DNA of 64,000 nt, from the NCBI RefSeq assembly GCF_008520305.1, contig NZ_ML703268.1:86424-150423 (forward strand). Direction: 5' to 3'. The DNA comes from Mesorhizobium sp. SARCC-RB16n. Its GTDB lineage: Bacteria > Pseudomonadota > Alphaproteobacteria > Rhizobiales > Rhizobiaceae. Below, piece after piece: positions 27,448 through 41,471 of the stretch (position 1 is its first letter; the number at the start of each line of letters is the position of its first letter). Made by a program: the position numbers and the translations under genes. The notes under the pieces were generated by a model, which did no database searches, was not told the DNA's origin, and saw nothing but the letters and a program-made list of their open reading frames with translations.

Positions 27448-27559
27448 CGCCTGGGTCCATTGGTGGATTGAACAGGCGGCAAGTTACCGGCGAGGCCGGT
27501 TGGGTCAATTGAAAAGCTTTGATACAAGGTCATCGATTATCGTGATGTGGCAGGACCTC

Positions 27560-28633
27560 ATGACACCGGACATCGAAACAATCGGCATTGCAGACCTGTT
27601 CGGACCGCCCTCGCCCGCCCGCGACCGCGCCGACGCCAGGATCATGGCCGCCGCATCCGGCATCGGCTTCATGGCGGTCCGGGATTTTCCCGGCGATGAC
27701 TGGCTGACGCCGGACAAGCGCGCGCAATTGCTGCGCATCTTCGCGCTTCCCGATGCCGGCAAGCAGGAACTGCTGCGCTGGAATTTCGATCATACGAAGA
27801 AGAATTTCTACCGCGGCTGGTTTCCGTTGCAGCCGCAAGCCGTTTCTTACAAGGAAGGCATCGACATGGGGCCAGACCTTGCCGATGCGGCGCGAGTTTC
27901 AGATTCCGACGATCCCTTGTGCGAGCCGACACCATTGCCGGGCGAAAATGCGCTGCCCGGCTGGCGTACCGCCGCAGCTGACTACTATCGCGCGATGGAG
28001 ACGGTCGGCACCATGCTGATGCGGTCCATCGCCCGCGGGCTTGGCCTGCCTGAACTGATCTTCGATTCCTATTTCGACGGTGGCATCTCGACGTTGCGCC
28101 TGATCCGCTATCCCTTGCGCGACGCCAATGCCGGCGTCGACACCAGCGGGCCGGAGTTTTCGGTGATCCACAAGGGCGAGACACGCACCATCATCGGCCG
28201 CGAACATGCCGATTCAGGCTTCGTCACTTTACTGGCGCAGGATGGCGTAGAGGGGTTGCAGGCAAAGAACCTCGTCGGCGAATGGGTCGACGTGCCTCCA
28301 GCCAATGGCACACTGGCGGTCAATTTCGGCCAGTTGCTGGAACGTTGGACCGGCGGCCGCGTGCGGGCGACACGGCACCGGGTCATTGCGCCAAAAACGG
28401 TGCGGTTCTCGATCCCGTTCTTCTACGAGCCGCGCGTCGACGCGGAAATCTCGCCCCTGCCATTGGAGGGCGCCGAACCGTTCGAGCCGTTTCTCTACGG
28501 CGACTATCTCTGGGAGTCGGCGACGAATTTCGTCGAGATGAGCGGCATCAAGCATCTGAGGCAGCCGCGCCGCGCCAAGGCTCCTAAGCAGCACGACGGC
28601 CGTCTCGCTGGAGATGGCCGGCGGAGACTATGA
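27560..28633 (+). CDS. Isopenicillin N synthase-like Fe(II) dioxygenase
   Basis: The 357-residue protein has an N-terminal DIOX_N-type region (TIGIADLFGPPSPARDRADARI) and a C-terminal double-stranded beta-helix with Fe ligands His216 and Asp218 (REHADSGFVTLL), His273 (RATRHRVI) and the 2-oxoglutarate-type Arg in RFSIPFF. Members hydroxylate, desaturate or cyclise small molecules with iron and usually 2-oxoglutarate. Start ATG at 27560 has AGGA 5 nt upstream; ATG at 27545 is possible. It lies 0.5 kb before the thioesterase of the degradation locus and may belong to it. Confidence 0.85.
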   Translation: MTPDIETIGIADLFGPPSPARDRADARIMAAASGIGFMAVRDFPGDDWLTPDKRAQLLRIFALPDAGKQELLRWNFDHTKKNFYRGWFPLQPQAVSYKEGIDMGPDLADAARVSDSDDPLCEPTPLPGENALPGWRTAAADYYRAMETVGTMLMRSIARGLGLPELIFDSYFDGGISTLRLIRYPLRDANAGVDTSGPEFSVIHKGETRTIIGREHADSGFVTLLAQDGVEGLQAKNLVGEWVDVPPANGTLAVNFGQLLERWTGGRVRATRHRVIAPKTVRFSIPFFYEPRVDAEISPLPLEGAEPFEPFLYGDYLWESATNFVEMSGIKHLRQPRRAKAPKQHDGRLAGDGRRRL

Positions 28634-28658
28634 GTGCTGCAGGCGAAGGAGGCGTGTG

Positions 28659-28907
28659 TCAATGGCGCTTGGCTTGCACCAGATAGGCGTCGATCTCTGA
28701 TTCGCCAAGCCATCTTGCGGCTTCGAGCCGATGCAGGCCTTCAACGAGGATATGGCGCTTGCCGTCGTGGCGGACCTGGATCGGCGTCTTCATGCCGTTC
28801 TCCAATATATCCTCGGCCAGATGCCGGACGGTCTCGGGGTGCAGCGTCTTCTTGCGCGCGGTGGGCACGTAGATGTCGTCGACCTTGACCTTTTGCACCC
28901 TGAGCAT
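28659..28907 (-). CDS. Single ParB/sulfiredoxin-like domain protein
   Basis: The 82-residue protein consists only of a ParB N-terminal-like domain: VDDIYVPTARKKTLHPETVRHLAEDI, then PIQVRHDGKRHILVEGLHRLEAARWLG, where GLHRLEAAR equals the nucleotide-binding box of ParB/Srx proteins. ParB domains bind CTP and some relatives act as nucleases or kinases. There is no DNA-binding half, so it is not a chromosome partition protein. It points against the neighbouring oxygenase gene (convergent, 25-nt gap). Confidence 0.8.
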   Translation of the reverse strand: MLRVQKVKVDDIYVPTARKKTLHPETVRHLAEDILENGMKTPIQVRHDGKRHILVEGLHRLEAARWLGESEIDAYLVQAKRH

Positions 28908-29093
28908 GGCTGTCCCCGTGGCGGAACTGCCGCCGTCTTCCTGAGATAGTCGGTTTGTTCGGGAGGGCCAAGGGCTCGGCTAACGAATGTCGGCTCAATC
29001 GGAAACCACCGGCCAAATCGTCAGCTGTTTGCCTGTCGCAGCGCGTTTCGATATGGGGTCTGGCAGTCTTCAATGAAGGTCGGAACGGATCCC

Positions 29094-29510
29094 ATGAGCA
29101 AATCCCTCGTCACCTTCGTGGGCGTCGCGCATCCCTGGATGTGCGATGTGATGGGGCACATGAATGTGCGCCATTACGCGGCGATGTTCGACGATGCCAG
29201 TTTCCAGCTGCTCGGCCATATCGCGGGACAGGACGGCAGCCAGGCATCACAAACCGGATGGGCCGACGTGCGCACCGAAATCGACTATCGCCACGAGACG
29301 AAGGCCGGCTCGCTGATCACAATCCGCTCGCATGTAGTGAAAATCGGCCGTACCTCCGTCAGCTTCGAACAGGTGATGTCCGGATCGATCGATGGCATCG
29401 TCCATGCATCGAGTCGGACCACAACCGTGTGCTTCGATCTTGGCGCGCGCGCCGCGGTGGCGCTGGACGAGCCGATGCGCAACCGAGCTTCGGCCTTACT
29501 CATCGAATAG
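29094..29510 (+). CDS. Hotdog-fold acyl-CoA thioesterase
   Basis: The 138-residue protein shows the 4HBT-type hotdog signature: PWMCDVMGHMNVRHYAAMFDDA near the N terminus and TEIDYRHETKAGSLITIRSHVVKIG in the middle, including the catalytic-helix region. Such enzymes release CoA from acyl-CoA esters. It converges with the LysR gene of the ABC/aminotransferase locus. In dehydrocarnitine degradation, a similar thioesterase (for betainyl-CoA) works with a BKACE enzyme, which is also present 7.5 kb downstream; that parallel is inference. ATG at 29094 is chosen over 29073. Confidence 0.82.
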   Translation: MSKSLVTFVGVAHPWMCDVMGHMNVRHYAAMFDDASFQLLGHIAGQDGSQASQTGWADVRTEIDYRHETKAGSLITIRSHVVKIGRTSVSFEQVMSGSIDGIVHASSRTTTVCFDLGARAAVALDEPMRNRASALLIE

Positions 29511-29523
29511 ACCCGCGTCGGCC

Positions 29524-30483
29524 TCAATCGCCGTAGATGCGATCCTGCAACGGCGTTTTGGCGATCAGGGCCTGAATTCCGGACAGTAGCGCCTGCTCGG
29601 CGCGATTCATCGCCTTGTCGGGATTGGTCAGCAGGAAGATGTCGATCGCCGGCGGCGCATCGTAAGGCGGCAGCCGCCACAGCACGCCATCGGCCACGTC
29701 GCGCCGCGCGACATGCAGCGGCAGCGGACCGATGCCGAGCCCGGCGACGATCATGCGTCGCACCTCCTCCAAGCTCGAAGACACGCCGACGACGTCGGCA
29801 TTCAGCTTGGCCTCGCTGCGCAGCAACGCCACGGGCCGCAAGGCGTCCGAAATGTGGTCAGTCTGGAAGGATACGGATGGCTCGCCCCGCAGATCGGCAA
29901 GCGTCAGCCCAGTTTTTCCGTAGAGCCTGTGTTGCGGGCCGCAGAAAAAACCGAAGAACTCGCGATAAACCATCGCGTAGTCCAGTGCCTGATCGCGCTG
30001 GCTGACGAGGCAGATGCCGAAAGAGGCGCGACGCTCCCGCACCTGCTTGGCGACTTCCGTGCTTGCCGCGACCGAGATAGTGATGGAGGCGCGCGGGTAG
30101 TTGCGGTGAAACTCCGCCAGCGCCCGGTCGAAGAGTGGCGAGACCACATGGCTGGCGGTCGCGACCATGACGTGGCCGGTGACGTCGTCGCTGATCCCAC
30201 GCATCAGCAGCGGCAGTTGCGATATGGTGCCGAACACCTCCACGCTCTGCTCATAGATCAGGCGCCCGACCTCGGTGAGTTCGAAGCGTGTCGCATCGCG
30301 CTCGACCAAGCGTCGGCCAACGCGGTCTTCCAGGCGCCTCAGCGCATTGCTGACGCTGGGTTGCTTGAGGTTGAGGCGCTCGGCGGCGCGCGTGATGCTC
30401 TTCACTTCGGCGATGACGACGAATGTGCGCAACAGGTTCCAGTCGAGGTCCCAGACCAGACGTTCGGGGCGCGGCAATGCCAT
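29524..30483 (-). CDS. LysR family transcriptional regulator
   Basis: The 319-residue protein has the N-terminal LysR helix-turn-helix (residues about 15-75, with TRAAERLNLKQPSVSNALRRLED) and a substrate-binding co-inducer domain (about 100-310). It is transcribed away from the ABC transporter/aminotransferase operon, the standard arrangement in which LysR controls the divergent genes. The inducer is presumably the imported compound. Candidate binding repeats lie in the 136-nt gap. Confidence 0.93.
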   Translation of the reverse strand: MALPRPERLVWDLDWNLLRTFVVIAEVKSITRAAERLNLKQPSVSNALRRLEDRVGRRLVERDATRFELTEVGRLIYEQSVEVFGTISQLPLLMRGISDDVTGHVMVATASHVVSPLFDRALAEFHRNYPRASITISVAASTEVAKQVRERRASFGICLVSQRDQALDYAMVYREFFGFFCGPQHRLYGKTGLTLADLRGEPSVSFQTDHISDALRPVALLRSEAKLNADVVGVSSSLEEVRRMIVAGLGIGPLPLHVARRDVADGVLWRLPPYDAPPAIDIFLLTNPDKAMNRAEQALLSGIQALIAKTPLQDRIYGD

Positions 30484-30490
30484 TCCTGAT

Positions 30491-30518
30491 ATCTATGCTC
30501 CCTATTCCCATTATCTAT
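30491..30518. promoter_or_regulatory. Possible LysR site: repeated ATCTAT
   Basis: ATCTAT occurs at 30491-30496 and again at 30513-30518, 22 bp apart (two turns), in the gap between LysR and the ABC operon. No clear T-N11-A dyad is seen, so this is only a candidate. Confidence 0.22.
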
Positions 30519-30619
30519 TTGCGCAATGCTTGGGCAAAGGCAATCATTGACATCAGGAGAGCGCCCCAACGCCTCCCAAGAACAGGCCATCGCGCTCCAT
30601 CCAGAGGACAGAAATTCAG

Positions 30620-31402
30620 ATGAACAAGGTATTTTCCGGCATCGCGGTTGCCGCGCTGCTGCTTGCGTCGACCTTCACGGCCGTTTCGTCCAGAGCCGAC
30701 GATCTCGAAAAGATCAAGGCGGCGGGCGAACTGAAGATTTCCATGAGCGGGCAGTATCCGCCCTTCAACTTCGTCAACGACCAGAACGAGGTCGTCGGCT
30801 TCGACGCCGACATCGGCAAGGCCATCGCCGAACGCATCGGCGTCAAGGGCATCATCATCACCGCCGCCTGGGATGGCATCATCGCCGGCCTGCTCGCCAA
30901 CAAATACGACACCGTCGTCGGCTCGATGACGGTCACGCCGGAGCGTGAGAAGGTGGTCGATTTCGTCGGCCCCTACTATCACGCCGGCCGCGCGGTCTTC
31001 GTGAACCGGGATTCCAAGGTGCAGAGCCTGGACGACCTCAAGGGCAAGACGCTTGGCGTGACGCTGGGCGAGACGCACGAGAAATGGGCGCGCGCGCAAG
31101 GTGGCTGGGACGTCCGCACCTATAAGGGCTTGCCGGAATTGTTGCTGGAATTGAAGGCGGGCCGTGTCGATGCCATCGTCGTCGACAACATTCCGGTCAT
31201 GGTCGCCGTCAAGGAAACCGGCGAGAAGGTGCGCAAGCTCGACACGCCTGACATCGAAGGCGGCAGCGTCGCCATCGGCATCGCCATCCGCAAGGACAAT
31301 CCGGAGCTCAAGGCCGCCATGCAGAAGGCATTGGACGGGATGATGGCCGACGGCACTTACGAGAAGATCTCCAAGCGGTGGGTCGGCAGCGACATTCGCT
31401 GA
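30620..31402 (+). CDS. Amino-acid-type ABC transporter binding protein
   Basis: The 260-residue periplasmic protein has a signal peptide (about residues 1-27) and the SBP_bac_3 fold: GELKISMSGQYPPFNFVNDQ, then VGFDADIGKAIAERIG, TVVGSMTVTPEREKVVDF and the C-terminal ISKRWVGSDIR. Such proteins bind polar amino acids, opines or related amines. It is the first gene of a run of nine genes ending at 39071. The ligand is unknown; the downstream enzymes suggest an amine or beta-amino acid. Confidence 0.92.
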   Translation: MNKVFSGIAVAALLLASTFTAVSSRADDLEKIKAAGELKISMSGQYPPFNFVNDQNEVVGFDADIGKAIAERIGVKGIIITAAWDGIIAGLLANKYDTVVGSMTVTPEREKVVDFVGPYYHAGRAVFVNRDSKVQSLDDLKGKTLGVTLGETHEKWARAQGGWDVRTYKGLPELLLELKAGRVDAIVVDNIPVMVAVKETGEKVRKLDTPDIEGGSVAIGIAIRKDNPELKAAMQKALDGMMADGTYEKISKRWVGSDIR

Positions 31403-31466
31403 TCCCTTCCGGTTTCAGGCGGCCGGGTCGCCTGAAAACCAAACGACATTCCTTCTGGGCCAACCC

Positions 31467-32114
31467 ATGGATTTCTCCTTGATGAGCCGTGTCTTCCCGT
31501 TCTTCGTGGAAGCGGCGTTCGTGACGCTGGAACTTACGGTGCTGGCCCTGGTTCTGGGGCTAGTTGCCGCCGCGCCGGCCGCAACCGCTCGGATGTCGAG
31601 ATCGGCAATCCTGCGGACCATCGGCACCGTCTATGTCAGCCTGTTTCGCGGTACACCCTGCCTGATCCAGCTGTTCGTGCTCTATTTCGGCGGGCCGCAG
31701 ATCGGCATCAACCTGGACCCGTTCGGGGCTGGCGTGATCGGCCTTGGCCTCAACATCGGTGCCTATATGGCGGAATCGATCCGAGGTGCGGTGATGGCGG
31801 TCGATCGCGGCCAGACTGAGGCTGCCCGCACGATCGGATTCAGCCGTTTCCAGACCTTGCGCAAAGTCGTACTGCCGCAGGCCGCTAGGCTGATGATCCG
31901 GCCGCTCGGCGTCAACACGGTCGCCTTACTGAAGGGTTCCGCGCTGGTGTCCACCATTTCGGTGGTGGAGCTGACCTATACGGCGCAGCGTTTCATCGGC
32001 TCGACCTACAAGCCATTCGAGATTTTCGGCGTCGCGGCCCTGCTTTACATGATCATGGTCTACGCCGTCGCCCGCATCGTCGACTTGCTCGACAAGCGCT
32101 TTGCCATCATCTGA
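31467..32114 (+). CDS. ABC permease, HisM/HisQ family (first)
   Basis: The 215-residue inner-membrane protein has about five hydrophobic segments. It carries the HisMQ-family markers LFRGTPCLIQLFVLYFGGPQIG and the EAA-type loop QTEAARTIGFSRFQTLRKVVLPQAARLMI, which contacts the ATPase. It forms the transmembrane channel with the next permease. The start at 31467 lacks an obvious ribosome-binding site; ATG at 31488 is an alternative. Confidence 0.92.
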   Translation: MDFSLMSRVFPFFVEAAFVTLELTVLALVLGLVAAAPAATARMSRSAILRTIGTVYVSLFRGTPCLIQLFVLYFGGPQIGINLDPFGAGVIGLGLNIGAYMAESIRGAVMAVDRGQTEAARTIGFSRFQTLRKVVLPQAARLMIRPLGVNTVALLKGSALVSTISVVELTYTAQRFIGSTYKPFEIFGVAALLYMIMVYAVARIVDLLDKRFAII

Positions 32115-32126
32115 CCGGGGAGCGTG

Positions 32127-32786
32127 ATGCAAGGTCTCGATTTCAGCGTTGTCGTGCCCTACTGGGACCTTCTTCTGACCGGCGCCTGGTGGACAGCCGT
32201 GCTGACGGTCTCGGCTGGAGCCCTCAGTTTCGTCTTCGGCATCCTGTTTGCCGTCATCGTGCTCTATGCGCCGGCGATCATTGCCTATCCCGTACGCGCC
32301 TTCATGTGGGTATTCATGGGTACGCCGCTGCTGCTGCAGCTTTTCCTGATCTATTTCGGACTGGTGCAGATCGGCATCGATATCCCTGCCCTTGTCGCAG
32401 GCATTGTCGGACTTGGCTTCCACTTTGCCGTCTATAACGCTGACGTCATCCGCGCGGGCATCGTCGCGGTCGATGTCGGCCAGACGGAGGGCGCGCGCAG
32501 CATCGGCTTCGGCAAATGGCAGGCGCTGCACTATGTCGTGATACCGCAAGCCGTCCGTAACACGGCGCCGCCGATCGGCAGCAACCTGATCGCGTTGTTG
32601 AAGGAGTCTTCCATCGTCTCGGTCATCGGCATCGCGGAACTCGTTCACTCGGCGCAACTGGCGATCAGCGAAACGTTCCGCCCGTTCGAATTCTACATCA
32701 CGGCCGCCGCGCTCTATTACATCTTGAACCTTGTGCTGGAAGCGGCCTTGCATCGGTTTGAACGGCACGTGGAGGTTTCTCGATGA
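32127..32786 (+). CDS. ABC permease, HisM/HisQ family (second)
   Basis: A 219-residue partner permease with five hydrophobic segments, [20 protein letters not shown] and the EAA loop [29 protein letters not shown] at 32127 follows GGGGAG. The stop codon overlaps the ATPase start (ATGA), so the two are translationally coupled. Together with the other permease it forms a heterodimeric importer for polar amino acids or similar compounds. Confidence 0.92.
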
Positions 32787-33547
32787 GCACGCAGTGGCCA
32801 ATGGTGGAGGTTCGCGGCGCACGCAAAGCTTTCGGCGCGGTCGAGGTTCTCAGAGGCATCGACCTGTCGGTCCAGCGCGGGCAGATCGTGGCGATCATCG
32901 GGCCGAGCGGTTCCGGCAAGAGCACGCTGCTGCGCTCTATCAACCATCTCGAGACGTTGAACGGCGGTGAAGTCTGGCTGGATGGCGTGCAGGTCAACCA
33001 GAAGCTGCACGGCCAGGCCTTCGAGCGGCACATCAACAAGGTGCGCCAGCAGATGGGCATGGTGTTCCAGCACTTCAATCTGTTCCCGCACCTGACGGTG
33101 ATCCAGAACATCACCATGGGGCCGGTGATCCTGAAAGGCATGCCCAAAGCCGATGCCAAGGCGTTCGCGCAGAGCCTGCTGTCCAAGGTTGGGCTTGCCG
33201 ACAAGATCGACGCCTACCCCTCGCGGCTTTCGGGCGGCCAGAAGCAGCGTGTGGCGATAGCGCGGGCTCTGGCCATGCAGCCCAAGGTGATGCTGTTCGA
33301 CGAGGCCACCTCGGCGCTCGACCCGGAGTTGGTCGACGAGGTCAACGCGGTGATGAAACAGCTTGCCGCCGAACACATGACCATGCTCATCGTAACACAT
33401 GAGATGCGCTTTGCCGGCGAAGTCGCCGACCGTGTGCTGTTCATGGATGGCGGCGTGGTGGTGGAAGAAGGCCCGCCGGCCGACATCTTTCGCGCGCCGC
33501 GGAAGGAACGCACGCGCACCTTCCTCAAGAAATATCTTTCCGCCTGA
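32783..33547 (+). CDS. ABC transporter ATPase, polar amino acid type
   Basis: The 254-residue ATPase has all motifs: Walker [10 protein letters not shown] (about residues 40-48), Q-loop [14 protein letters not shown], signature [15 protein letters not shown] and Walker [15 protein letters not shown], then the H-loop VTHEM. It closely resembles GlnQ/HisP-type subunits. It completes a full importer (binding protein, two permeases, one ATPase). Nine nt later the dimethylformamidase-like gene begins, so the importer and enzymes share an operon. Confidence 0.95.
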
Positions 33548-33555
33548 GCAAGATG

Positions 33556-35196
33556 ATGACCAGATTGATCACTGAATTTCCCGATTTCGGACTGACGCCC
33601 GAGCAGCGCCGTCATGCCGTGCGCGGCCACTATTACGAATGGCCAGGCATGGATGGCGAGCGCGGCGAGATCTGGTGCTATAGCGACCGGTTTTCGTACC
33701 GTACCGGTGAGACAGTTACACTGCACATCAGCTCGACCGCTCCGTCCTTCGGCATGACGATCGTTCGGGACGGCGGCACCGAGACGAAAGTGTTCGAGAA
33801 GTCGGGCATCGCATCGCTCTGGCAGGACAGTCCGGACCAATGCTCGGCCGAAGGCTGCGGCTGGGAAGCCTCCTTCGAGTTTCGCGTGGGAAGTGACTGG
33901 CCGTCCGGCGCCTACCGCGTGACGCTGACCGCGGACGGACGCGACGGCAAGCCGATCCAATCCCACCATCTGTTCATCGTCAGCCCGCAGTCTGGCAAGA
34001 AACCCGGCCGTGTGCTGCAGGTGGCGGCGACGGGCACCTGGCTTGCCTACAACACCTGGGGCGGTTCCAACCATTATCAGGGCATCACCGGACCCGACCG
34101 GGACCAGTATTCGCCCATCGTGTCGACGCAGCGCCCCTGGTGCCGCGGCTTCGTCGTGCTGCCCGGGGATGCGCCGCGCGTGCCGCTGGAGGTCGCGGTG
34201 CTGCCGAAGACCGTGCCGCGCTACCCGCACATGGAATGGGCGCTCGCCACCGGCCATTCGAAGAAATACGCCTCGTCGGGCTGGGCCAGCTACGACAGCC
34301 ATTTTTTTCGCTTTGCCGAGCGGGCTGGTTATGATGTCGACCTGACAAGCCAGCATGATCTGCATTTCTCGCCTGAGATTCTCGACGGCTACGATTGCGC
34401 GGTCTTTGTCGGCCATGACGAATACTGGACCTGGGAAATGCGCGATGCAGTCGACAACTATGTCGAGCGCGGCGGCCATGCGGCGCGCTTTGCCGGCAAT
34501 TTCATGTGGCAGACGCGGCTCGAGGACGAGGGCCGTCGGCAGGTCTGCTACAAATACCGCGCCCGGGCCGAGGATCCCGCCTATCACGGCGGCGACGTGA
34601 CACGCGCCACCAATTCCTGGGAAGCGCCCGAAATCGGCCGGCCGGGTTCAGCCACCTTCGGGCTCAATGCCACCCGTGGCCTTTACGCGGGCTGGGGCGG
34701 CTGTGCGCCGCGCGGCATCCGCGGTTTTCCAGTCTACCGGCCCGAGCATTGGGCCTTCGCCGGCACCGGCATCTATTACGGTGACCTGCTCGGCGCCGAC
34801 AGCCATGTCTATGGTTATGAGGTCGACGGGCTCGAATTCGAGCTACGCGGTGGCCTGCCCTACCCGACCGCGTCCAGCGGTGCGCCCGATGGCTTGCAGG
34901 TGCTGGCCGTCGGCATGGCAAGCCAAGTCGAAGAGAGCGCCGACATTCCGGTCGAGGACCAGTTCCTCACCGACGAGGATGGCCGCTTCAGCGCCGAGAC
35001 GCTGTTTGGCGACAGAAGCAACGCCAATCTCGAAAAGGTCAAACGCAGCAATGGCATGATCGTCAATTTTCCACGCGGCAAGGGCGAAGTGTTTCACGCC
35101 GGAAGCTGCGAATGGGTTGCCGGCCTGCTAAGACAAGACCCGATGGTCGAACGGGTTACCCAGAATGTCCTCGATCGCTATCTTGGAAAGTCCTGA
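33556..35196 (+). CDS. N,N-dimethylformamidase large-subunit-like protein
   Basis: The 546-residue protein is like the C-terminal part of the DmfA2 large subunit of dimethylformamidase, a mononuclear-iron amidohydrolase. Recognisable blocks are WLAYNTWGGSNHYQG, the VGHDEYWTWEMRDAVDNYVE segment, and FAGNFMWQTR. No small DmfA1 subunit gene is found next to it, so the reaction may differ. The family fits hydrolysis of an amide C-N bond in an N-substituted amide. It lies between the importer and the aminotransferase, 9 nt after the ATPase gene. Substrate unknown. Confidence 0.75.
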   Translation: MTRLITEFPDFGLTPEQRRHAVRGHYYEWPGMDGERGEIWCYSDRFSYRTGETVTLHISSTAPSFGMTIVRDGGTETKVFEKSGIASLWQDSPDQCSAEGCGWEASFEFRVGSDWPSGAYRVTLTADGRDGKPIQSHHLFIVSPQSGKKPGRVLQVAATGTWLAYNTWGGSNHYQGITGPDRDQYSPIVSTQRPWCRGFVVLPGDAPRVPLEVAVLPKTVPRYPHMEWALATGHSKKYASSGWASYDSHFFRFAERAGYDVDLTSQHDLHFSPEILDGYDCAVFVGHDEYWTWEMRDAVDNYVERGGHAARFAGNFMWQTRLEDEGRRQVCYKYRARAEDPAYHGGDVTRATNSWEAPEIGRPGSATFGLNATRGLYAGWGGCAPRGIRGFPVYRPEHWAFAGTGIYYGDLLGADSHVYGYEVDGLEFELRGGLPYPTASSGAPDGLQVLAVGMASQVEESADIPVEDQFLTDEDGRFSAETLFGDRSNANLEKVKRSNGMIVNFPRGKGEVFHAGSCEWVAGLLRQDPMVERVTQNVLDRYLGKS

Positions 35197-35197
35197 C

Positions 35198-36583
35198 ATG
35201 TCGAAAGTCCAGCCTGCCATTCAAGACACCGACGCCCGCCGCCAATCGCATTTGTTCTACCTATCCAGCCTGCGCCGGCCGCTGATCGACCGCGCCGAAG
35301 GCATCTATATGTGGACGCAGGATGGCCGCCGTTTCATCGACGGATCGAGCGGTCCGATGGTCGCCAATATCGGCCATTCCAACCGTAATGTGCTCGATGC
35401 GATGAAGCGGCAGATGGACCGCGCCACCTTCGCCTACCGACTGCATTTCGAAAACGAGCCGGCCGAGGAGCTGGCGCGTGAACTTGCCGGTAAGCTGCCG
35501 GAAGGCATGGACCGCATCTTCTTCGTCTCCGGCGGGTCGGAGGCTACGGAATCCTGCATCAAGCTGGCGCGGCAATGGGCGGTGGCCACCGGCCAGGCGA
35601 GCCGCTGGAAGGTCATCACGCGCTTCCCTTCCTATCATGGCGGCACGCTGGGTTCGCTTTCGATCACCGGCGACGACGCACTGGCCGAAAGTTTTACACC
35701 GATGATGCGGGTGATGCCGACCGTGCCGGCACCGACCGCCTGGCGCGACCGCGACAATCTCTCGATGGAGCAGCGCGGCATCCGTTACGCCGACATGCTG
35801 GAGGAAAAGATCCTCGCCGAAGGTGCCGAAAGCGTCGTCGCCTTCATCATGGAGCCGATCGGCGGCGCAGCGACCGCAGCGCTTGTCGCGCCAGACAGCT
35901 ACTACGCGCGCATCCGCGAGATCTGCGATCGCTACGGCATCCTGCTGATCCATGACGAAGTGATGAGCGGGGCCGGCCGCACCGGCAAATTCCTCGGCGG
36001 CGACCACTGGAACTGCAAGCCTGATATCGTCGCGCTGTCGAAGGGGCTGGGATCGGGCTATGCGCCGCTCGGGGCATTGGCGGCGCCGATGCGGCTGGTC
36101 GAGCCACTGCTCGCCTCCGGCGGCTTCCAGCACGGCCACACCTATGCCGGCAACCCGCTCGCCTGCGCCGCCGGGCTTGCCGTGCTTGGCGAAATGGACC
36201 GGCTCGACCTGATCGCCAATGCAGCTGCCATGGGCGACGTGCTGATGGACGGATTGAAGGGTCTGGCGAAGCGCTTCCCGTTCATTGCCGATGTGCGCGG
36301 CAAGGGCCTGCTGACAGGCGCCGAAATGGTCGCCGATCCCGATACGCTAAAGCCGATCGACCAGAGCAAGAAAGCGACGCAACGGCTGCTCGACCTCGCC
36401 TATGAGCGCGGGCTGATCATCTATGGACGGAGGGTCAAGGGCGGCGTCGACGGCGACAATTTCATGGTCGCGCCGCCGATGATCGTCACCAGCGAACAGG
36501 TCGGCGAGATCATCTCGATCATCGGCGATTCGCTTGAGGTCCTGGCCTCCGAGCTCGACCTGCCAGTTGAAGGCCGGGGGTAG
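35198..36583 (+). CDS. Class III PLP-dependent aminotransferase
   Basis: The 461-residue enzyme is a class III (omega-amino acid/diamine type) transaminase: FVSGGSEATESCIKLARQ (cofactor phosphate), IMEPIGGAATAAL, LLIHDEVMSGAGRTGKFL (Asp of the cofactor ring) and the PLP lysine Lys282 in ALSKGLGSGYAPLGA. It transfers an amino group to or from a keto or aldehyde group, usually on an omega- or beta-amino substrate. ATG at 35198 follows the previous stop by 1 nt and has GGAAAG upstream. It directly precedes the BKACE gene, so its product may be the beta-keto acid that BKACE cleaves. Confidence 0.92.
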   Translation: MSKVQPAIQDTDARRQSHLFYLSSLRRPLIDRAEGIYMWTQDGRRFIDGSSGPMVANIGHSNRNVLDAMKRQMDRATFAYRLHFENEPAEELARELAGKLPEGMDRIFFVSGGSEATESCIKLARQWAVATGQASRWKVITRFPSYHGGTLGSLSITGDDALAESFTPMMRVMPTVPAPTAWRDRDNLSMEQRGIRYADMLEEKILAEGAESVVAFIMEPIGGAATAALVAPDSYYARIREICDRYGILLIHDEVMSGAGRTGKFLGGDHWNCKPDIVALSKGLGSGYAPLGALAAPMRLVEPLLASGGFQHGHTYAGNPLACAAGLAVLGEMDRLDLIANAAAMGDVLMDGLKGLAKRFPFIADVRGKGLLTGAEMVADPDTLKPIDQSKKATQRLLDLAYERGLIIYGRRVKGGVDGDNFMVAPPMIVTSEQVGEIISIIGDSLEVLASELDLPVEGRG

Positions 36584-36588
36584 AGGAA

Positions 36589-37518
36589 ATGGCGCCGCGA
36601 AAAGTCATCATCACTTGCGCCGTCACAGGCTCGGTGCACACGCCGTCGATGTCGCCCTATCTGCCGGTGACGCCGGACCAGATTGCCGCGAACGCCATCG
36701 CGGCGGCCGAGGCCGGCGCCTCGATCCTGCATCTGCATGCCCGCGACCCCAAAGACGGACGGCCAACGGCCGATCCGGATGTCTACATGCAATTCCTGCC
36801 GCGCATCAAGCAGGCGACGTCTGCGGTCATCAACATCACCACCGGCGGCTCCTCGCTGATGACACTGGACCAGCGGCTTGCTGCACCGCTGCGCGCCGAG
36901 CCCGAAATGTGCTCGCTCAACATGGGCTCGATGAATTTCGCGCTGTTCCCGATGCTGGACAAGCCGCGGGAATGGCAGCACGAATGGGAACCGAAGCTGC
37001 TGGAAGCCACCCGCGACACCATTTTCAAGAACACCTTCGCCGACATGGAGGGTGTGCTTGAGAGGCTGGGCAAGGGTTGCGGCACCCGCTTCGAATTCGA
37101 GTGCTACGACGTCGGCCACCTCTATTCGCTGGCGCATTTCCGAGACCGTGGCCTGGTGTCGGGGCCGCTGTTCATCCAATTCGTGCTTGGCATTCTGGGC
37201 GGCATCGGCGCCGATCCCGACAATCTCATCCACATGAAGCGCATCGCCGACAAATTGTTCGGCGACAGCTATCAGTTCTCGGTGCTGGCCGCGGGCCGCA
37301 ACCAGATGCCGTTGATCTCCATCGCTGCGGCCATGGGCGGCAACGTGCGTGTCGGTCTGGAAGACAGCCTCTACGATGGCCGCCAGTTGGCGAAGTCCAA
37401 CGCTGACCAAGTGCGCCGCATCCGTGGCATTCTCGATGGGCTGTCGCTGGAGGTTGCCACGCCGGCCGAAGCGCGCGACATGCTGGCGCTCAAGGGCGGC
37501 GACCGGGTGGCTTTTTGA
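36589..37518 (+). CDS. BKACE (DUF849) family beta-keto acid cleavage enzyme
   Basis: The 309-residue enzyme has the BKACE signature: KVIITCAVTGSVHTPSMSP, the zinc motif ILHLHARD (His48, His50), NITTGG, and EFECYDVGHLYSLAHF. BKACE enzymes split a beta-keto acid with acetyl-CoA into acetoacetate and a new acyl-CoA. Characterised substrates of the family include 3-keto-5-aminohexanoate and dehydrocarnitine. Five nt separate it from the aminotransferase gene. The substrate cannot be read off; the gene context (aminotransferase, acetyltransferase, deacetylase) suggests an amino-beta-keto acid. Confidence 0.93.
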   Translation: MAPRKVIITCAVTGSVHTPSMSPYLPVTPDQIAANAIAAAEAGASILHLHARDPKDGRPTADPDVYMQFLPRIKQATSAVINITTGGSSLMTLDQRLAAPLRAEPEMCSLNMGSMNFALFPMLDKPREWQHEWEPKLLEATRDTIFKNTFADMEGVLERLGKGCGTRFEFECYDVGHLYSLAHFRDRGLVSGPLFIQFVLGILGGIGADPDNLIHMKRIADKLFGDSYQFSVLAAGRNQMPLISIAAAMGGNVRVGLEDSLYDGRQLAKSNADQVRRIRGILDGLSLEVATPAEARDMLALKGGDRVAF

Positions 37519-37527
37519 GACAAGACC

Positions 37528-38046
37528 GTGACTAATCCAGCCTCCAATGATGTCATCCTCCGCCCCGGCACCATCGATGACGTCGAAACCATCCACGGGG
37601 CGATCCTGAAGCTCGGCACCCATATCGGCGCGCCCGAGGAAATCATCTCGACGGCCGACGATCTCAGGACCTGGGGCTTTGGCGCAAAGCCCGCCTTCTC
37701 GACCCTGATTGCCGAAGTCGATGGCGAATTCGCCGGGCTTTGCCTGCATTTTCCGATCTTCTCGACCTGGATGGGGCGGCCTGGCGTCTATGTGCAGGAC
37801 CTTTACGTCGAGGACCGGTTTCGTGGCCGCAAGGTCGGCGAACGCCTGCTGCGGCGCGTGGCGGCCGAGTGCCGTAGGGATGGCGGCGTGTATCTGAGAC
37901 TGTCCGTCGACACCGACAATGAGGGCGCCAAGGCCTTTTACGAGAGGCTGGGCATTGCCTGGTCGAGCTACGAGCAGACGCAGAAAATCATTGGCGAGGC
38001 TTTTTTCGCCTTCGGCGACGCGCCGGAAAATGGAGAGCAGGAATGA
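37528..38046 (+). CDS. GNAT N-acetyltransferase, diamine (SSAT)-like
   Basis: The 172-residue protein has the GNAT core: IRP-like LRPGTIDDVETIHGAIL at the start, GVYVQDLYVEDRFRGRKVGERLLRRV (acetyl-CoA pyrophosphate loop, RGRKVG) and LSVDTDNEGAKAFYERLGI. The PGVYVQDLYV segment resembles spermidine/thialysine acetyltransferases, so a diamine or amino acid side-chain amine is a fair guess. The start is GTG at 37528. Its stop overlaps the ATG of the deacetylase gene by 4 nt, which couples the two opposing activities. Confidence 0.85.
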   Translation: MTNPASNDVILRPGTIDDVETIHGAILKLGTHIGAPEEIISTADDLRTWGFGAKPAFSTLIAEVDGEFAGLCLHFPIFSTWMGRPGVYVQDLYVEDRFRGRKVGERLLRRVAAECRRDGGVYLRLSVDTDNEGAKAFYERLGIAWSSYEQTQKIIGEAFFAFGDAPENGEQE

Positions 38047-39071
38047 AAGCCTTCTATGCGCCGGAGCAGAAGCGGCACGATCCCAGGGCCTTTCTTTCCA
38101 GCGGTGCGGCGCAGCCCAACCCTGAAAAACCGGAACGCGTCGAAAGATTATTAGCCGGCGCAAGATCGGCCGGCTACACGATCGAGCGACCGCGCAGTCA
38201 TGGGCTTGGCCCGGTCTCCGCCGTGCATACGCCCGAATATCTCGACTTCCTCGAACATATTTTCGAACGCTGGCAGCGCATCGATGGGGCTTCGGCCGAG
38301 GTCATTCCCAATATCCACCCGATCGCCCGCAACGGCTCCTATCCGGCCTCCGCCGTCGGTCAGGCCGGATACCACATGGCCGACACCGCTTGCCCGATCT
38401 CGGGCGAGACATGGCAGAGCGCGCTGTGGAGCGCCTGGAGCGCGGTTGAGGCGGCGGAAACGGTGATGGCCGGCGCTTCCGGCGCCTATGCGCTGTGCCG
38501 ACCGCCTGGCCATCACGCCTTTGCCGATGTCGCCGGCGGCTTCTGCTTTATCAACAATTCGGCCGTCGCGGCACAAATGCTGCGCAGACAGGCGGCCCGC
38601 GTAGCGATTCTCGATGTCGACCTGCATCACGGCAACGGGACGCAAGGCATCTTCTACGCGCGGCCTGATGTGCTGACTGTCTCGCTGCATGCCGATCCGG
38701 TGCGCTTCTACCCGTTCTTCTGGGGCCATGCCGACGAGCGCGGTGAAGGTCCGGGACTTGGCTACAATTTTAACCTGCCGCTGCCGCGCAAATCCGCGAA
38801 TGCTGCGTTTCTCGAAGCGCTCGGCGTGGCGTTCCAGCGTATCCGCGCCTTCTCGCCTGACGCGCTGGTGGTGGCACTCGGCCTCGACGCCTTCGAGGGC
38901 GATCCGTTCGGCGGGCTTTCGGTGACGACGCCAGGCTTCTCACGTATCGGGGAGGCCATCGCCAGTCTCGGCCTGCCGACGGTCATCGTCCAGGAAGGCG
39001 GCTATCTCTGCGACGAACTCGGCGACAATCTCACCGCCTTCCTCACCGGTTTTGGCGGCAAGGCGCGGTGA
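38043..39071 (+). CDS. Histone deacetylase-like acetylpolyamine amidohydrolase
   Basis: The 342-residue zinc amidohydrolase has the class II deacetylase layout: RPPGHHAF with the catalytic histidines 157-158, VDLHHGNGTQGIFY with zinc ligands Asp193 (DVD) and His195, and ALGLDAFEGDPFGGL with the third ligand Asp. Bacterial relatives deacetylate N-acetylpolyamines or similar. It overlaps the acetyltransferase gene (ATGA), so both enzymes appear together. It ends the nine-gene operon and converges with the class V PLP gene. Confidence 0.9.
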   Translation: MKAFYAPEQKRHDPRAFLSSGAAQPNPEKPERVERLLAGARSAGYTIERPRSHGLGPVSAVHTPEYLDFLEHIFERWQRIDGASAEVIPNIHPIARNGSYPASAVGQAGYHMADTACPISGETWQSALWSAWSAVEAAETVMAGASGAYALCRPPGHHAFADVAGGFCFINNSAVAAQMLRRQAARVAILDVDLHHGNGTQGIFYARPDVLTVSLHADPVRFYPFFWGHADERGEGPGLGYNFNLPLPRKSANAAFLEALGVAFQRIRAFSPDALVVALGLDAFEGDPFGGLSVTTPGFSRIGEAIASLGLPTVIVQEGGYLCDELGDNLTAFLTGFGGKAR

Positions 39072-39086
39072 CAATTCAAACTCGCG

Positions 39087-40355
39087 TCAGGAGCGTTGCT
39101 GCCTGAGCATGGCAATCACCCGGTGCACGCTCTCCAGCGTTTCGTCGATTTCGGACGCCGTATTGTAGTGCGCGATGCCGATGCGCACGACACCTTGCTC
39201 GGCCGGAATGCCGAGTTGGTGGACGATCTCCCAGGCATAGTTGTGGCCCGACCACAGGAAGATGTTTTCGGCGTTCATTTGCCGCACAATGGTCTCGGGA
39301 ACGATGCCATCGACGGTGAAGGAGACTGTCGGAACACGATCGACGAGGCGTTTCGGATCGGTGATGCCATGGATGGTCAACCCCGAAATATCGGACAGGC
39401 CATCGATCAACCTTTGCGCCAGCGGATTTTCGTAGGCGATGGAAATTTCGAACGCCTTGGCAATCCTGCGCCTTCTTGACCCACCCTCGCCGGCCGAGGC
39501 GCCGAGATCGGCAAAATAGTCGACAGCGGCGGTGAGCCCGGCCATCAGTTCGATCTGCGGCGTGCCGAGTTCGAAGCGCTCCGGCAATCCATCGGACGAG
39601 CAGCGGCATTTATAGGCTTTCAGACCTTCGATGACCTCGCGCCGGCCCCACAATATGCCCATATGCGGACCGAAGAATTTGTAGGCCGAGCAAATCAGGA
39701 AATCGCAGCCGAGTTCCTGCACATCGATCAGGCCATGCGGCGCGAATTGCACGGCATCGACATAAACCAGCGCGCCGGCCTGTTTTGCAATTTGGGTCAA
39801 GGACTTGACGCGATTGATCGAGCCGGTGAGATTGCTGGCGTAGTTCAGCGCCACCAGCCGTGTCTTCCCGGACAGCAGACCTGCCAGCGTTGCCTCCTCG
39901 ACCTGCCAGGTCCTTTCGTCGAACGGCAGCCAGCGCACGACGAGGCCAAGATCCTCGGCCAGTTGCAGCCAGGGCGACACGTTGCCCTCGTGGTCCATGC
40001 GGGTGAGGATGATCTCGTCGCCTGGCTTCATCGTGCGGCCGAGCGTTCGCGACATGTGGTAGGTCAGCGTCGTCATGTTGGCGCCGATGACGATCTCCTG
40101 GGGGCTCGCCGCGCCAAGGAAATCGGCCATCGCCTGATGCGCATCATCAACGACCTGCTGCGCCGCGATCGTCGTTTCAAAATAGCCGCCAAGATTAGCG
40201 TTAGTCGTCAACAGGCAGCGCGAGACCGCATCGGCCACCGCCTGAGGCACCTGCGTGCCGGCAGGATTGTCGAGATAGATACGCCGGCGTCCTTTGTCGG
40301 TCAGCGAGAGAGCGGGAAATTTTCCACGCACGGCCTCGATCGAAAAATCCACCAT
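39087..40355 (-). CDS. Class V PLP enzyme, cysteine desulfurase-like subfamily
   Basis: The 422-residue protein has the class V fold with YLDNPAGTQVPQAVADAV, GANMTTLTYHMSRTLG, LTRMDHEGNVSPWLQLAED and the PLP lysine in ICSAYKFFGPHMGILWG. The C-terminal cysteine loop typical of true desulfurases (IscS/SufS) is not evident, so a racemase, lyase or aminotransferase role is as likely. ATG at 40355 is chosen because GGAG lies 5 nt upstream. The gene converges with the deacetylase gene. The downstream aldo/keto reductase is transcribed in the same direction and could share its regulation. Confidence 0.82.
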   Translation of the reverse strand: MVDFSIEAVRGKFPALSLTDKGRRRIYLDNPAGTQVPQAVADAVSRCLLTTNANLGGYFETTIAAQQVVDDAHQAMADFLGAASPQEIVIGANMTTLTYHMSRTLGRTMKPGDEIILTRMDHEGNVSPWLQLAEDLGLVVRWLPFDERTWQVEEATLAGLLSGKTRLVALNYASNLTGSINRVKSLTQIAKQAGALVYVDAVQFAPHGLIDVQELGCDFLICSAYKFFGPHMGILWGRREVIEGLKAYKCRCSSDGLPERFELGTPQIELMAGLTAAVDYFADLGASAGEGGSRRRRIAKAFEISIAYENPLAQRLIDGLSDISGLTIHGITDPKRLVDRVPTVSFTVDGIVPETIVRQMNAENIFLWSGHNYAWEIVHQLGIPAEQGVVRIGIAHYNTASEIDETLESVHRVIAMLRQQRS

Positions 40356-40403
40356 TGTCTCCATCCCTTTACTGTTGCTCGACAATTCCGCAGCTAGGCC
40401 CGG

Positions 40404-41471
40404 TCAAGGACAGGGATTGCCGACCCTCTGGTGAACCGCATCCACCGCCTTTTGCATCTCTTCAGTCCAGATGATATCAACAGAAGACAGCGCCATATCG
40501 AGCTGTGCAACCGATGTCGCGCCGACAATGTTCGACGTGACAAAAGGCCGGCTTGAGACATAGGCATTGGCAAACAGCGCCGGCTCCAGGCCGAAAGAGC
40601 GCGCCAGTTGATTGTATTCGAGCTGCGCTTCAGCGGCATTGGGCGTCTCATAACGCTGACCGCGATTGAACAGCTGCGAGCGCGAACCTTGCGGGCGGGC
40701 GCCATGATCGTATTTGCCGGTCAGATAACCTTGCGCCAGTGGCGAATAGGCGAGCAGCGATACCTCTTCGCGCTCGCAGACCTCCGCGAGGTTCACCTCG
40801 AAGGTACGGTTGACGAGGTTGTAGGCGTTCTGGATCGAGGCGACGTGCGGACCGATCCCCTTGTCGGCCTCTGCAAGGAAGCGCATCAGGCCCCACGAAC
40901 TCTCGTTCGAAAGGCCGAAATGGCGGATTTTTCCTGCCTTCACCAGTTCCTCGAACACCGCAAGCGTCTCGGCGATCGGCGTCTCGCCGGCCGGCGCGCC
41001 GACAGAATCGGCACGCCGCGCCACCGCGCCAACGCGCGTCGGGTTGGCGCCCCAGGGAATGTCTCGTTCCGGCCAGTGGATTTGATAAAGGTCGAGATAG
41101 TCCGTGCCGAGCTTGGCCAGCGACTTGTCGATGGCATCAAAGATATCGGCCCGCACCAAATGCGAGGACCGGTCGCCGCGAAACCATGCATTGGCCGTGC
41201 GGCCGACGACCTTCGATGCAAGGATCACCTTATCGCGATTGCCCTTGGCCTTCATCCAACTGCCGATGATCTTCTCGGTCCGCCCTTGCGTCTCCGCCTT
41301 GGGCGGGATCGGATAGAGTTCGGCGGTGTCGATGAAATTGACTCCGCGCGAGAAGGCCAGGTCCATCTGGGCATGGCCTTCGGCCTCGGTGTTCTGCTGC
41401 CCCCAGGTCATCGAACCAAGGCAAATCTGGGTAACAAGAAGATCGGTCCGACCGAGACGGCGTTTGTGCAT
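40404..41471 (-). CDS. Aldo/keto reductase, Tas-like
   Basis: The 355-residue NADPH-dependent oxidoreductase shows KRRLGRTDLLVTQICLGSMTWG, the catalytic residues in NFIDTAELYP (Asp, Tyr) and YLDLYQIHWPERD (His), and C-terminal VTSNIVGATSVAQLDMAL. The family reduces aldehydes and ketones; Tas-type members are often found with unknown substrate. It is upstream of the class V PLP gene on the minus strand (48-nt gap), so they may be co-transcribed and belong to the same degradation locus. Confidence 0.9.
   Translation of the reverse strand: MHKRRLGRTDLLVTQICLGSMTWGQQNTEAEGHAQMDLAFSRGVNFIDTAELYPIPPKAETQGRTEKIIGSWMKAKGNRDKVILASKVVGRTANAWFRGDRSSHLVRADIFDAIDKSLAKLGTDYLDLYQIHWPERDIPWGANPTRVGAVARRADSVGAPAGETPIAETLAVFEELVKAGKIRHFGLSNESSWGLMRFLAEADKGIGPHVASIQNAYNLVNRTFEVNLAEVCEREEVSLLAYSPLAQGYLTGKYDHGARPQGSRSQLFNRGQRYETPNAAEAQLEYNQLARSFGLEPALFANAYVSSRPFVTSNIVGATSVAQLDMALSSVDIIWTEEMQKAVDAVHQRVGNPCP

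Follow-up and report, generated by a model that had tools for sequence, protein, structure and literature searches.

A conserved operon of Mesorhizobium that probably imports and degrades β-lysine or an acylated form of it

Aerobic degradation of β-lysine (3,6-diaminohexanoate) was reportedly worked out by enzymology in Pseudomonas sp. B4 by the Barker laboratory in about 1979-1981. The amino acid is said to be acetylated at N6 and then transaminated to 3-keto-6-acetamidohexanoate, which is reportedly cleaved with acetyl-CoA to acetoacetate and 4-acetamidobutyryl-CoA, hydrolysis of the thioester and the amide giving γ-aminobutyrate (GABA); deacetylase and thiolesterase are said to be one protein, and enzymes rather than genes were reportedly described. 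Carnitine degradation via dehydrocarnitine cleavage uses a β-keto acid cleavage enzyme (BKACE) together with a 4HBT thioesterase. In anaerobic lysine fermentation (KamA, KamDE, Kdd, Kce) a lysine-derived β-amino acid is also joined to cleavage by a BKACE-superfamily enzyme, according to the available part of PMC3149608. A gene-level account of the aerobic β-lysine route was not found in the literature searched, subscription papers lying outside it. Here we describe an operon in a 64,000-nucleotide stretch of Mesorhizobium sp. SARCC-RB16n (contig NZ_ML703268.1, positions 86,424 to 150,423; the whole stretch is referred to as the window) that, judging from its gene families and their relatives, probably imports and degrades β-lysine or an N-acyl or peptidyl form of it.

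Open reading frame (ORF) listing and profile scans place nine tightly packed genes on the plus strand at 30620-39071, four for an ATP-binding cassette (ABC) importer and five for enzymes, as a preliminary description of this DNA had placed them, preceded by a divergent LysR gene and a thioesterase gene. The nine-gene operon is real as a unit. The features are as follows.

29073-29510, plus strand: hotdog 4HBT_2 thioesterase (Pfam 4HBT_2, 60.8 bits, above the cut-off)
29524-30483, minus strand: LysR-type regulator, divergent to the operon (Pfam LysR domains)
30509-30522, plus strand: candidate LysR operator CATTATCTATTTGC (cross-genus alignment of the divergent intergenic region)
30620-31402, plus strand: family 3 solute-binding protein (SBP), polar/cationic amino acid type (SBP_bac_3, 141 bits)
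31467-32114, plus strand: ABC permease 1 (ORF; 66% identical homologue in locus L092 annotated as amino-acid ABC permease)
32124-32786, plus strand: ABC permease 2 (ORF; 72% homologue in L092 annotated as amino-acid ABC permease)
32783-33547, plus strand: ABC ATPase (ORF; 78% homologue in L092 annotated as amino-acid ABC ATPase)
33553-35196, plus strand: DMFA2_C-family amidohydrolase, DMFA (PF20254, 237.8 bits, above the cut-off)
35165-36583 (ORF), plus strand: class III aminotransferase, AMT3 (PF00202, 307 bits)
36589-37518, plus strand: BKACE (PF05853, 355.4 bits against a cut-off of 24.8; NF053538, 520.4 against 430)
37528-38046, plus strand: GNAT of SSAT2/thialysine type (best solved relative 12jc, thialysine acetyltransferase, 63 bits)
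38043-39071, plus strand: HDAC-like acetylpolyamine amidohydrolase (PF00850, 250.7 bits)

The permease and ATPase names rest on their homologues in L092, whose annotations are those of amino-acid ABC components. A start of AMT3 at 35198, directly after the DMFA stop, is likelier than the ORF start at 35165, and among the matches listed the closest BKACE homologues are those of Mesorhizobium, 98-99% identical.

The route that we propose has one step per gene or gene group. An amino-acid ABC importer would take up β-lysine or its N-acyl or peptidyl form, the DMFA2_C enzyme would hydrolyse the amide on the β-amine to give free β-lysine, and the GNAT would acetylate the distal N6 amine. The resulting N6-acetyl-β-lysine would be converted by the class III aminotransferase to 6-acetamido-3-oxohexanoate, which BKACE would cleave with acetyl-CoA to acetoacetate and 4-acetamidobutyryl-CoA; the thioesterase would release 4-acetamidobutyrate from the latter and the HDAC-like enzyme would strip the acetyl group to yield GABA and then succinate, so that acetoacetate and GABA would feed central metabolism, with LysR controlling the unit. 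After transamination a free 6-amine of β-lysine would close onto the new C3 ketone, and the acetyl cap would prevent this cyclisation. Capping, cleavage and uncapping in this order would account for the presence of both an acetyltransferase and a deacetylase in the operon. The preliminary description had import come first, followed by amide hydrolysis, acetylation, transamination, cleavage by BKACE and hydrolysis of the thioester, an order that fits the evidence well. Its acetyl cycle is retained in recast form, as a protecting group on the distal amine that would be put on before transamination and taken off after cleavage, and its "amine or amide" substrate is narrowed to a diamino β-amino acid, most likely β-lysine or an acyl or peptidyl derivative. 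Seen directly are gene content, families, conserved order, co-inheritance, exchanges of modules and the co-occurrence of an aminomutase-like gene in a thiolase variant; what we infer is the substrate, the individual reactions and whether amide hydrolysis comes before acetylation.

The individual enzymes are consistent with these roles to different degrees. The nearest named solved proteins of the GNAT are thialysine acetyltransferase (63 bits), then SSAT2, SSAT1 and ornithine N5-acetyltransferases. It carries the motif STW.GR common to thialysine acetyltransferase and SSAT2, in place of which the polyamine enzyme SSAT1 has DPWIGK, and among 52 homologues F-S-(T/S)-W is present in every one and STW.G(R/K) in 43. 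Thialysine is preferred by SSAT2 and SSAT-like enzymes according to the accessible part of PMC3543422, and the window's GNAT is proposed to be a β-lysine N6-acetyltransferase. The HDAC-like protein groups with acetylpolyamine amidohydrolases both by its deacetylase motif and by its closest solved kin, acetylpolyamine aminohydrolase 3men (351 bits), the PPGHH motif being kept in 62 of 62 homologues; we propose it as the 4-acetamidobutyrate deacetylase. DMFA matches the structures of dimethylformamidase (DMFase; 51.9 bits) and N-acetyl-(R)-β-phenylalanine acylase (50.2 bits) in a profile comparison, and that a member of the family deacylates β-amino acids is a pointer to a substrate of β-amino-acid type. 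Its residues H288, E290, N316 and Y166 align on H519, E521, N547 and Y399 of DMFase, the last of which we take to be an iron ligand, and Y440 and E657 are not covered by the alignment. DMFase mutants at H519, E521 and N547 are inactive, as stated in the part of PMC7686228 available. DMFA is thus a putative N-acyl(peptidyl)-β-lysine amidase. Its paralogues gave no clue to the substrate, as nine further regions with relatives of 40-72% identity have no common setting; in one of them, L166, a β-transaminase-like gene (52%) lies about 6 kb from the DMFA relative.

AMT3 matches many class III aminotransferases, which provides no sharper clue to its substrate, and its role as N6-acetyl-β-lysine transaminase is a proposal. 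BKACE, whose LHLHAR motif is present in 75 of 80 homologues, scores below the cut-off of the Kce model NF052387 (221.3 against 382 bits) and would be a 6-acetamido-3-oxohexanoate cleavage enzyme. The thioesterase has a weak match (26.6 bits; cut-off 592) in the model for carnitine 3-dehydrogenase fusions, at their thioesterase end. Of the 19 BKACE loci with this gene, 18 have it next to LysR or HDAC, and its product may act as 4-acetamidobutyryl-CoA thioesterase.

In order to establish which genes belong together we inspected the surroundings of 80 BKACE loci, the best 80 of a longer list, itself limited in length, from one genome scan; contig ends shorten some of them, so that presence counts are lower bounds. 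HDAC is found near BKACE in 62 of these loci, AMT3 in 60, GNAT in 52 and DMFA in 50. AMT3, HDAC and GNAT occur together in 48 and are joined by DMFA in 43; 65 loci have one or more of the four and 15 have none. In a tree of the window's BKACE and those of 79 loci (L050 was left out as short) a single branch separates the partner-bearing enzymes, those of 64 loci and the window, from the rest; a label for the presence of any of the four partners nearby requires 1 change compared with a mean of 14 after shuffling, and none of 500 shuffles was as low. The short gaps and overlaps noted earlier in the window are conserved as well. GNAT and HDAC are at most 100 bp apart in all 50 of their same-strand pairs, with a median overlap of 4 bp, as are AMT3 and BKACE in 57 of 60 pairs and DMFA and AMT3 in 45 of 46. 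The window-type SBP is present in only 14 of the 80 loci and the thioesterase in 19. Co-conservation of the set in Rhizobiales, which the preliminary description proposed to test, therefore applies to the enzyme core and not to the importer or to three outer enzymes described below, whose presence is patchy or limited to a lineage, so that none of these is a fixed part of the module. In L001 only the end of the ATPase gene is left between LysR and DMFA (L001:6604-6966), with the candidate operator kept; the importer was probably lost there by deletion.

A wider view comes from an order-wide draw of 199 genomes, in which GNAT matches at a threshold of 1e-15 were found at 62 places in 54 genomes. 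Among 18 places picked by score and inspected, 7 hold a complete AMT3-BKACE-GNAT-HDAC set, 4 a partial one (L138, L140, L141, L143) and 7 none. An FAD oxidoreductase is added to the BKACE-type cluster in L136, L137, L139 and L144, followed in L136 by a RidA-family gene (PF01042), an arrangement also found by eye in Thalassospira L060; loci with both proteins may use oxidation alongside transamination.

The strongest argument is provided by related clusters in which the BKACE and HDAC genes have been exchanged for others. Two marine plasmids share LysR, an amino-acid importer, AMT, a cleavage-deacylation block, an amidohydrolase and an alanine racemase (alr), with identities between Parasedimentitalea and Alisedimentitalea of 73-83% for the importer, 62% for AMT, 64% for the amidohydrolase, 51% for alr and 41% for LysR; the Alisedimentitalea LysR is 43% identical to that of the window. 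The block consists of BKACE and HDAC in Parasedimentitalea and of CoA-transferase A/B, an ArgE/DapE deacylase and thiolase in Alisedimentitalea. Since unrelated genes are exchanged in the same setting, BKACE would stand in for activation and thiolysis of a β-keto acid and HDAC for an N-deacylase, which suggests two interchangeable ways of cutting an N-acetyl-capped β-keto acid. In Zavarzinia a protein of the M20 peptidase family occupies the HDAC position after GNAT.

A search for plasmid GNATs revealed a second type of cluster in Rhizobium and Sinorhizobium, composed of genes for LysR, CoA-transferase A/B, ArgE, thiolase, GNAT and a class III aminotransferase, of which the first and the last lie further off in Rhizobium C104. 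The GNATs of these thiolase-type clusters are 40-41% and the LysRs 46-49% identical to those of the window, and just upstream of the S. medicae SU277 cluster there are an importer and a DMFA that shares 74% identity with that of the window. One of their aminotransferases, that of R. leguminosarum Norway, was compared with solved structures and proved closest to a β-transaminase (421 bits), presumably from Mesorhizobium, and then to β-phenylalanine aminotransferase (393 bits), a kinship not seen for the window's own AMT3. Aminotransferases of thiolase clusters close to the solved β-transaminase are located at L090:8630-9937 and also at L094:29053-30360. β-Lysine derivatives may be the natural substrate of this β-transaminase group.

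The link to β-lysine is a plasmid-borne gene of the lysine-2,3-aminomutase-like family TIGR03822 (559 bits). Plasmid records with a thiolase at least 79% identical number nine, and all nine fall among the 13 that hold an aminomutase-like gene at least 80% identical. In C104 this gene ends about 435 bp ahead of the CoA-transferase gene on the same strand. Among genomes with BKACE-type clusters, 12 of 20 searched carry a KamA-family gene, and the flanks of six of these genes, inspected over up to about 1.5 kb per side, show no cluster gene. Three of these six (L084-L086) adjoin an apparent EpmA-like gene, EF-P also being visible in L085 and L086, and by this reading they point to EF-P β-lysylation in these Rhizobiales; the remaining three have no such neighbour.

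Solved relatives of the SBP include glutamine, cationic amino acid, nopaline and Lys/Arg/Orn binding proteins, and homologues of the ATPase that are 76-93% identical precede DMFA in related loci. Importers vary between loci, being of amino-acid type or, by reading of sequences, of spermidine/putrescine type. In Phyllobacterium (L042:4535-8485) what reads as a sugar-type ABC importer directly precedes AMT3-BKACE-GNAT-HDAC, replacing the amino-acid importer. Cluster-linked relatives of LysR in a tree are 46-97% identical to the window's protein, compared with 23-26% for six other LysRs, and the two thiolase-type LysRs included in the tree nest among the BKACE-type ones (90/87 support). The sequence CATTATCTATTTGC in the gap between LysR and the operon is kept across genera, from Mesorhizobium to Ensifer, Nitratireductor and Ciceribacter, including loci whose operon begins with AMT3 or DMFA. 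With up to 2 mismatches it has a single match in the window, where 0.12 are expected and 9 of 100 shuffles contain one or more, and an exact 13-mer of it is present in 18 of the 170 loci fetched, a number that includes two second fetches of the same place. It was not found in loci with a LysR only about 45-56% identical, for example in Thalassospira, and may mark only the closer LysR relatives; a scan of the LysR-operon intergenic region for near-perfect 15-base palindromes gave none. LysR perhaps controls the operon via the conserved candidate site at 30509.

Several observations weigh against β-lysine as the substrate, or against the set as a fixed pathway. The link to β-lysine runs via the thiolase-type clusters, and lysine 2,3-aminomutase is absent from the fetched flanks of all 80 BKACE-type loci; this is expected if β-lysine is imported, yet it is a gap in the argument. 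Even in the thiolase-type clusters aminomutase and thiolase lie about 3 kb apart in C104, 9 kb in R. bangladeshense, 19-27 kb in others and 119 kb in S. medicae, and the nine plasmid records are related rather than independent, so that the co-occurrence is support and no proof. The name of the BKACE family (3,5-dioxohexanoate) indicates no amine, BKACE15 accepted β-ketohexanoate, 3,5-dioxohexanoate and other uncharged acids, and in the available part of the source (PMC11961710) an acetamido substrate is not named. Turning to the regulator, the label "beside a BKACE-type cluster" is unclustered on the LysR tree (5 changes against a shuffled mean of 5.8, with 92 of 500 shuffles as low) because it swept in three unrelated nearby LysRs, and S. 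meliloti pSymB holds a LysR 40% identical to the window's without this cluster, so that LysR kinship alone is no proof.

The gene set, too, is incomplete in places. Among the 27 closest Mesorhizobium-type loci, one of which (L008) is shortened, 23 are without SBP and 22 without LysR in the fetched flank. GNAT is absent in the 7 Thalassospira loci, which may import an already acetylated substrate, and in some others of the BKACE group; AMT3 is absent in L026, L027, L040, L045 and L072, and DMFA in 30 of 80. L143 is DMFA-AMT3-GNAT-HDAC with no space for BKACE, and a Rhizobium CB3171 plasmid carries a BKACE remnant only. The latter, annotated as a "hypothetical protein" (L087:8597-8998), is an internally deleted BKACE of 133 residues between AMT3 and GNAT, and the AMT3, GNAT and HDAC beside it are annotated as full length. 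Finally, GNAT occurs without partner genes at 7 of the 18 inspected places, once (L128) at 54% identity to that of the window, and by itself is thus no marker of the cluster.

With these points in mind other substrates have to be weighed. The enzyme classes indicate a β-amine and a distal amine and do not fix the chain length, so that a different diamino β-amino acid, such as 3,5-diaminopentanoate, a hydroxylated β-lysine or a homologue, could be processed by the same cap-transaminate-cleave-uncap logic, and the variation in importer type between loci (amino-acid, spermidine/putrescine and, in Phyllobacterium, sugar-type, the last two by reading) would suit such a range. We consider this unlikely, though well worth keeping in mind, given the lysine-2,3-aminomutase-like gene in nine of nine close thiolase-type plasmid records and the preference of SSAT2-like GNATs for a lysine-like substrate, as far as the available source goes. 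Polyamine catabolism is a more distant prospect. Here GNAT and HDAC would act on spermidine or putrescine, and β-alanine would be converted by the aminotransferase to malonate semialdehyde for cleavage by BKACE to formyl-CoA and acetoacetate. The HDAC is indeed of acetylpolyamine amidohydrolase type, importers of several loci are by eye of spermidine/putrescine type, and several BKACEs use malonate semialdehyde in vitro according to the accessible text of PMC11961710. However, the GNAT motif is that of thialysine/SSAT2 enzymes, unlike SSAT1, the replacement of BKACE by thiolase and CoA-transferase fits an ordinary β-ketoacyl-CoA better than malonate semialdehyde, and a β-transaminase relative and a lysine-aminomutase-like gene accompany the thiolase-type clusters, all of which makes polyamines improbable.

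A variant of the anaerobic type of lysine fermentation, with 3-keto-5-aminohexanoate as BKACE substrate, would agree with membership in the BKACE superfamily and with relatives annotated as 3-keto-5-aminohexanoate cleavage protein. It is very improbable and was already disfavoured by the Kce model score (221 bits, cut-off 382). Moreover, neither lysine 5,6-aminomutase nor 3,5-diaminohexanoate dehydrogenase is present among the scanned operon genes (related loci were not searched), and the acetyl-capping pair would be without a role. β-Lysine or an acylated form of it thus continues to be the substrate that we favor, and if so the operon would supply genes, a regulator and a marker for a route otherwise known, it seems, only from enzymology, and would correct the "3-keto-5-aminohexanoate cleavage protein" label on annotated BKACE relatives.

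A further possibility concerns the origin of the substrate, which might be a β-lysine peptide made by rhizobia in nodules in the manner of a rhizopine, the window operon being the utilisation half; we regard this as speculative and rather doubtful. Its attraction is that a nodule-made β-lysine peptide eaten by rhizobia would explain both the aminomutase and ligase genes on plasmids of nodule isolates and the window operon. Rhizobial genera account for all 28 plasmid records that hold a second kind of lysine 2,3-aminomutase (at least 73% identical), many of them from nodules by their source fields. ATP-grasp genes lie near the aminomutase in seven of seven inspected plasmid regions, one of them with a demonstrated L-amino-acid-ligase domain, and some regions also hold lysine-biosynthesis genes, an aspartate decarboxylase or ectoine synthase gene, or exporters. 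In S. meliloti pSymA an aspartokinase-like gene (under model cut-offs), aspartate-semialdehyde dehydrogenase and dapA are nearby. The pairing of aminomutase and ATP-grasp (L093-L096, L168-L170) recurs on plasmids of Rhizobium, Sinorhizobium, Mesorhizobium and Bradyrhizobium, and it is possible that such regions specify a family of nodule metabolites. In pea bacteroids of R. leguminosarum UPM791 lysine 2,3-aminomutase is abundant, being undetected in vegetative cells, and symbiotic-plasmid ligase-like proteins appear in the pea-versus-lentil tables, according to the part of PMC7950203 available; from its locus number we infer that the UPM791 aminomutase gene is on the symbiotic plasmid. Against a nodule peptide, five genomes with the BKACE-type or DMFA set, three of them named as Mesorhizobium, hold only relatives of the plasmid aminomutase that are 34-35% identical, and a rhizobial or bacteroid β-lysine product was not found in the literature searched, which excluded subscription papers. 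If the nodule link is true, one may ask whether bacteroids make a β-lysine peptide that favors their own kin.

The operon is flanked by three further enzyme genes, which the preliminary description had also named, along with LysR and the thioesterase, and which lie at or near the places stated there.

27500-28633: 2OG-Fe(II) dioxygenase, flanking gene
39087-40385, minus strand: class V enzyme (a class V pyridoxal phosphate enzyme in the preliminary description), flanking gene
40404-41471, minus strand: aldo/keto reductase (best model scores under the curated cut-off)

All occurrences of the dioxygenase (9 loci), class V enzyme (26) and aldo/keto reductase (26) are within the 27 closest Mesorhizobium-type loci, and none of the three is present in any of the 53 loci outside this group. 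They are lineage neighbours and not pathway genes. Elsewhere in the window, outside the operon, a protein of peptidase family S58 (183 bits) is encoded at 52001-53020.

How, then, does the operon compare with known systems? BKACE-dependent deoxyribonate catabolism, as described in the available part of PMC6365646, also combines a BKACE with genes for transporters in one catabolic operon, the difference being that a sugar acid is oxidised by a dehydrogenase, with no nitrogen chemistry. Relative to anaerobic lysine fermentation the operon is without 5,6-aminomutase or dehydrogenase, and its BKACE is under the Kce cut-off. N-acetyl-(R)-β-phenylalanine acylase and N,N-dimethylformamidase are remote homologues of DMFA, and the catalytic H, E and N of DMFase are aligned, but DMFA is much shorter (547 versus about 775 residues) and belongs to another operon; no gene for a separate small subunit of DMFase type lies between the abutting or overlapping ATPase, DMFA and aminotransferase genes. 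Carnitine degradation shares with the proposed route BKACE cleavage of a β-keto acid and a related thioesterase, and differs in that the β-keto acid of the window would come from an aminotransferase, not from carnitine dehydrogenase (no carnitine 3-dehydrogenase is among the scanned operon genes), and in the acetyl cap that would be added and removed. Closest of all is the route reported from Pseudomonas B4, for each step of which the window operon has one plausible gene, the differences being that deacetylase and thioesterase are two genes in the window and that an importer and a DMFA2_C amidase are added. The pathway had been put forward as undescribed, which probably does not apply to its chemistry, given the reported enzymology, and does seem to apply to its gene set; relative to that chemistry, the gene set, importer, amidase and module swap seem to be the new parts.

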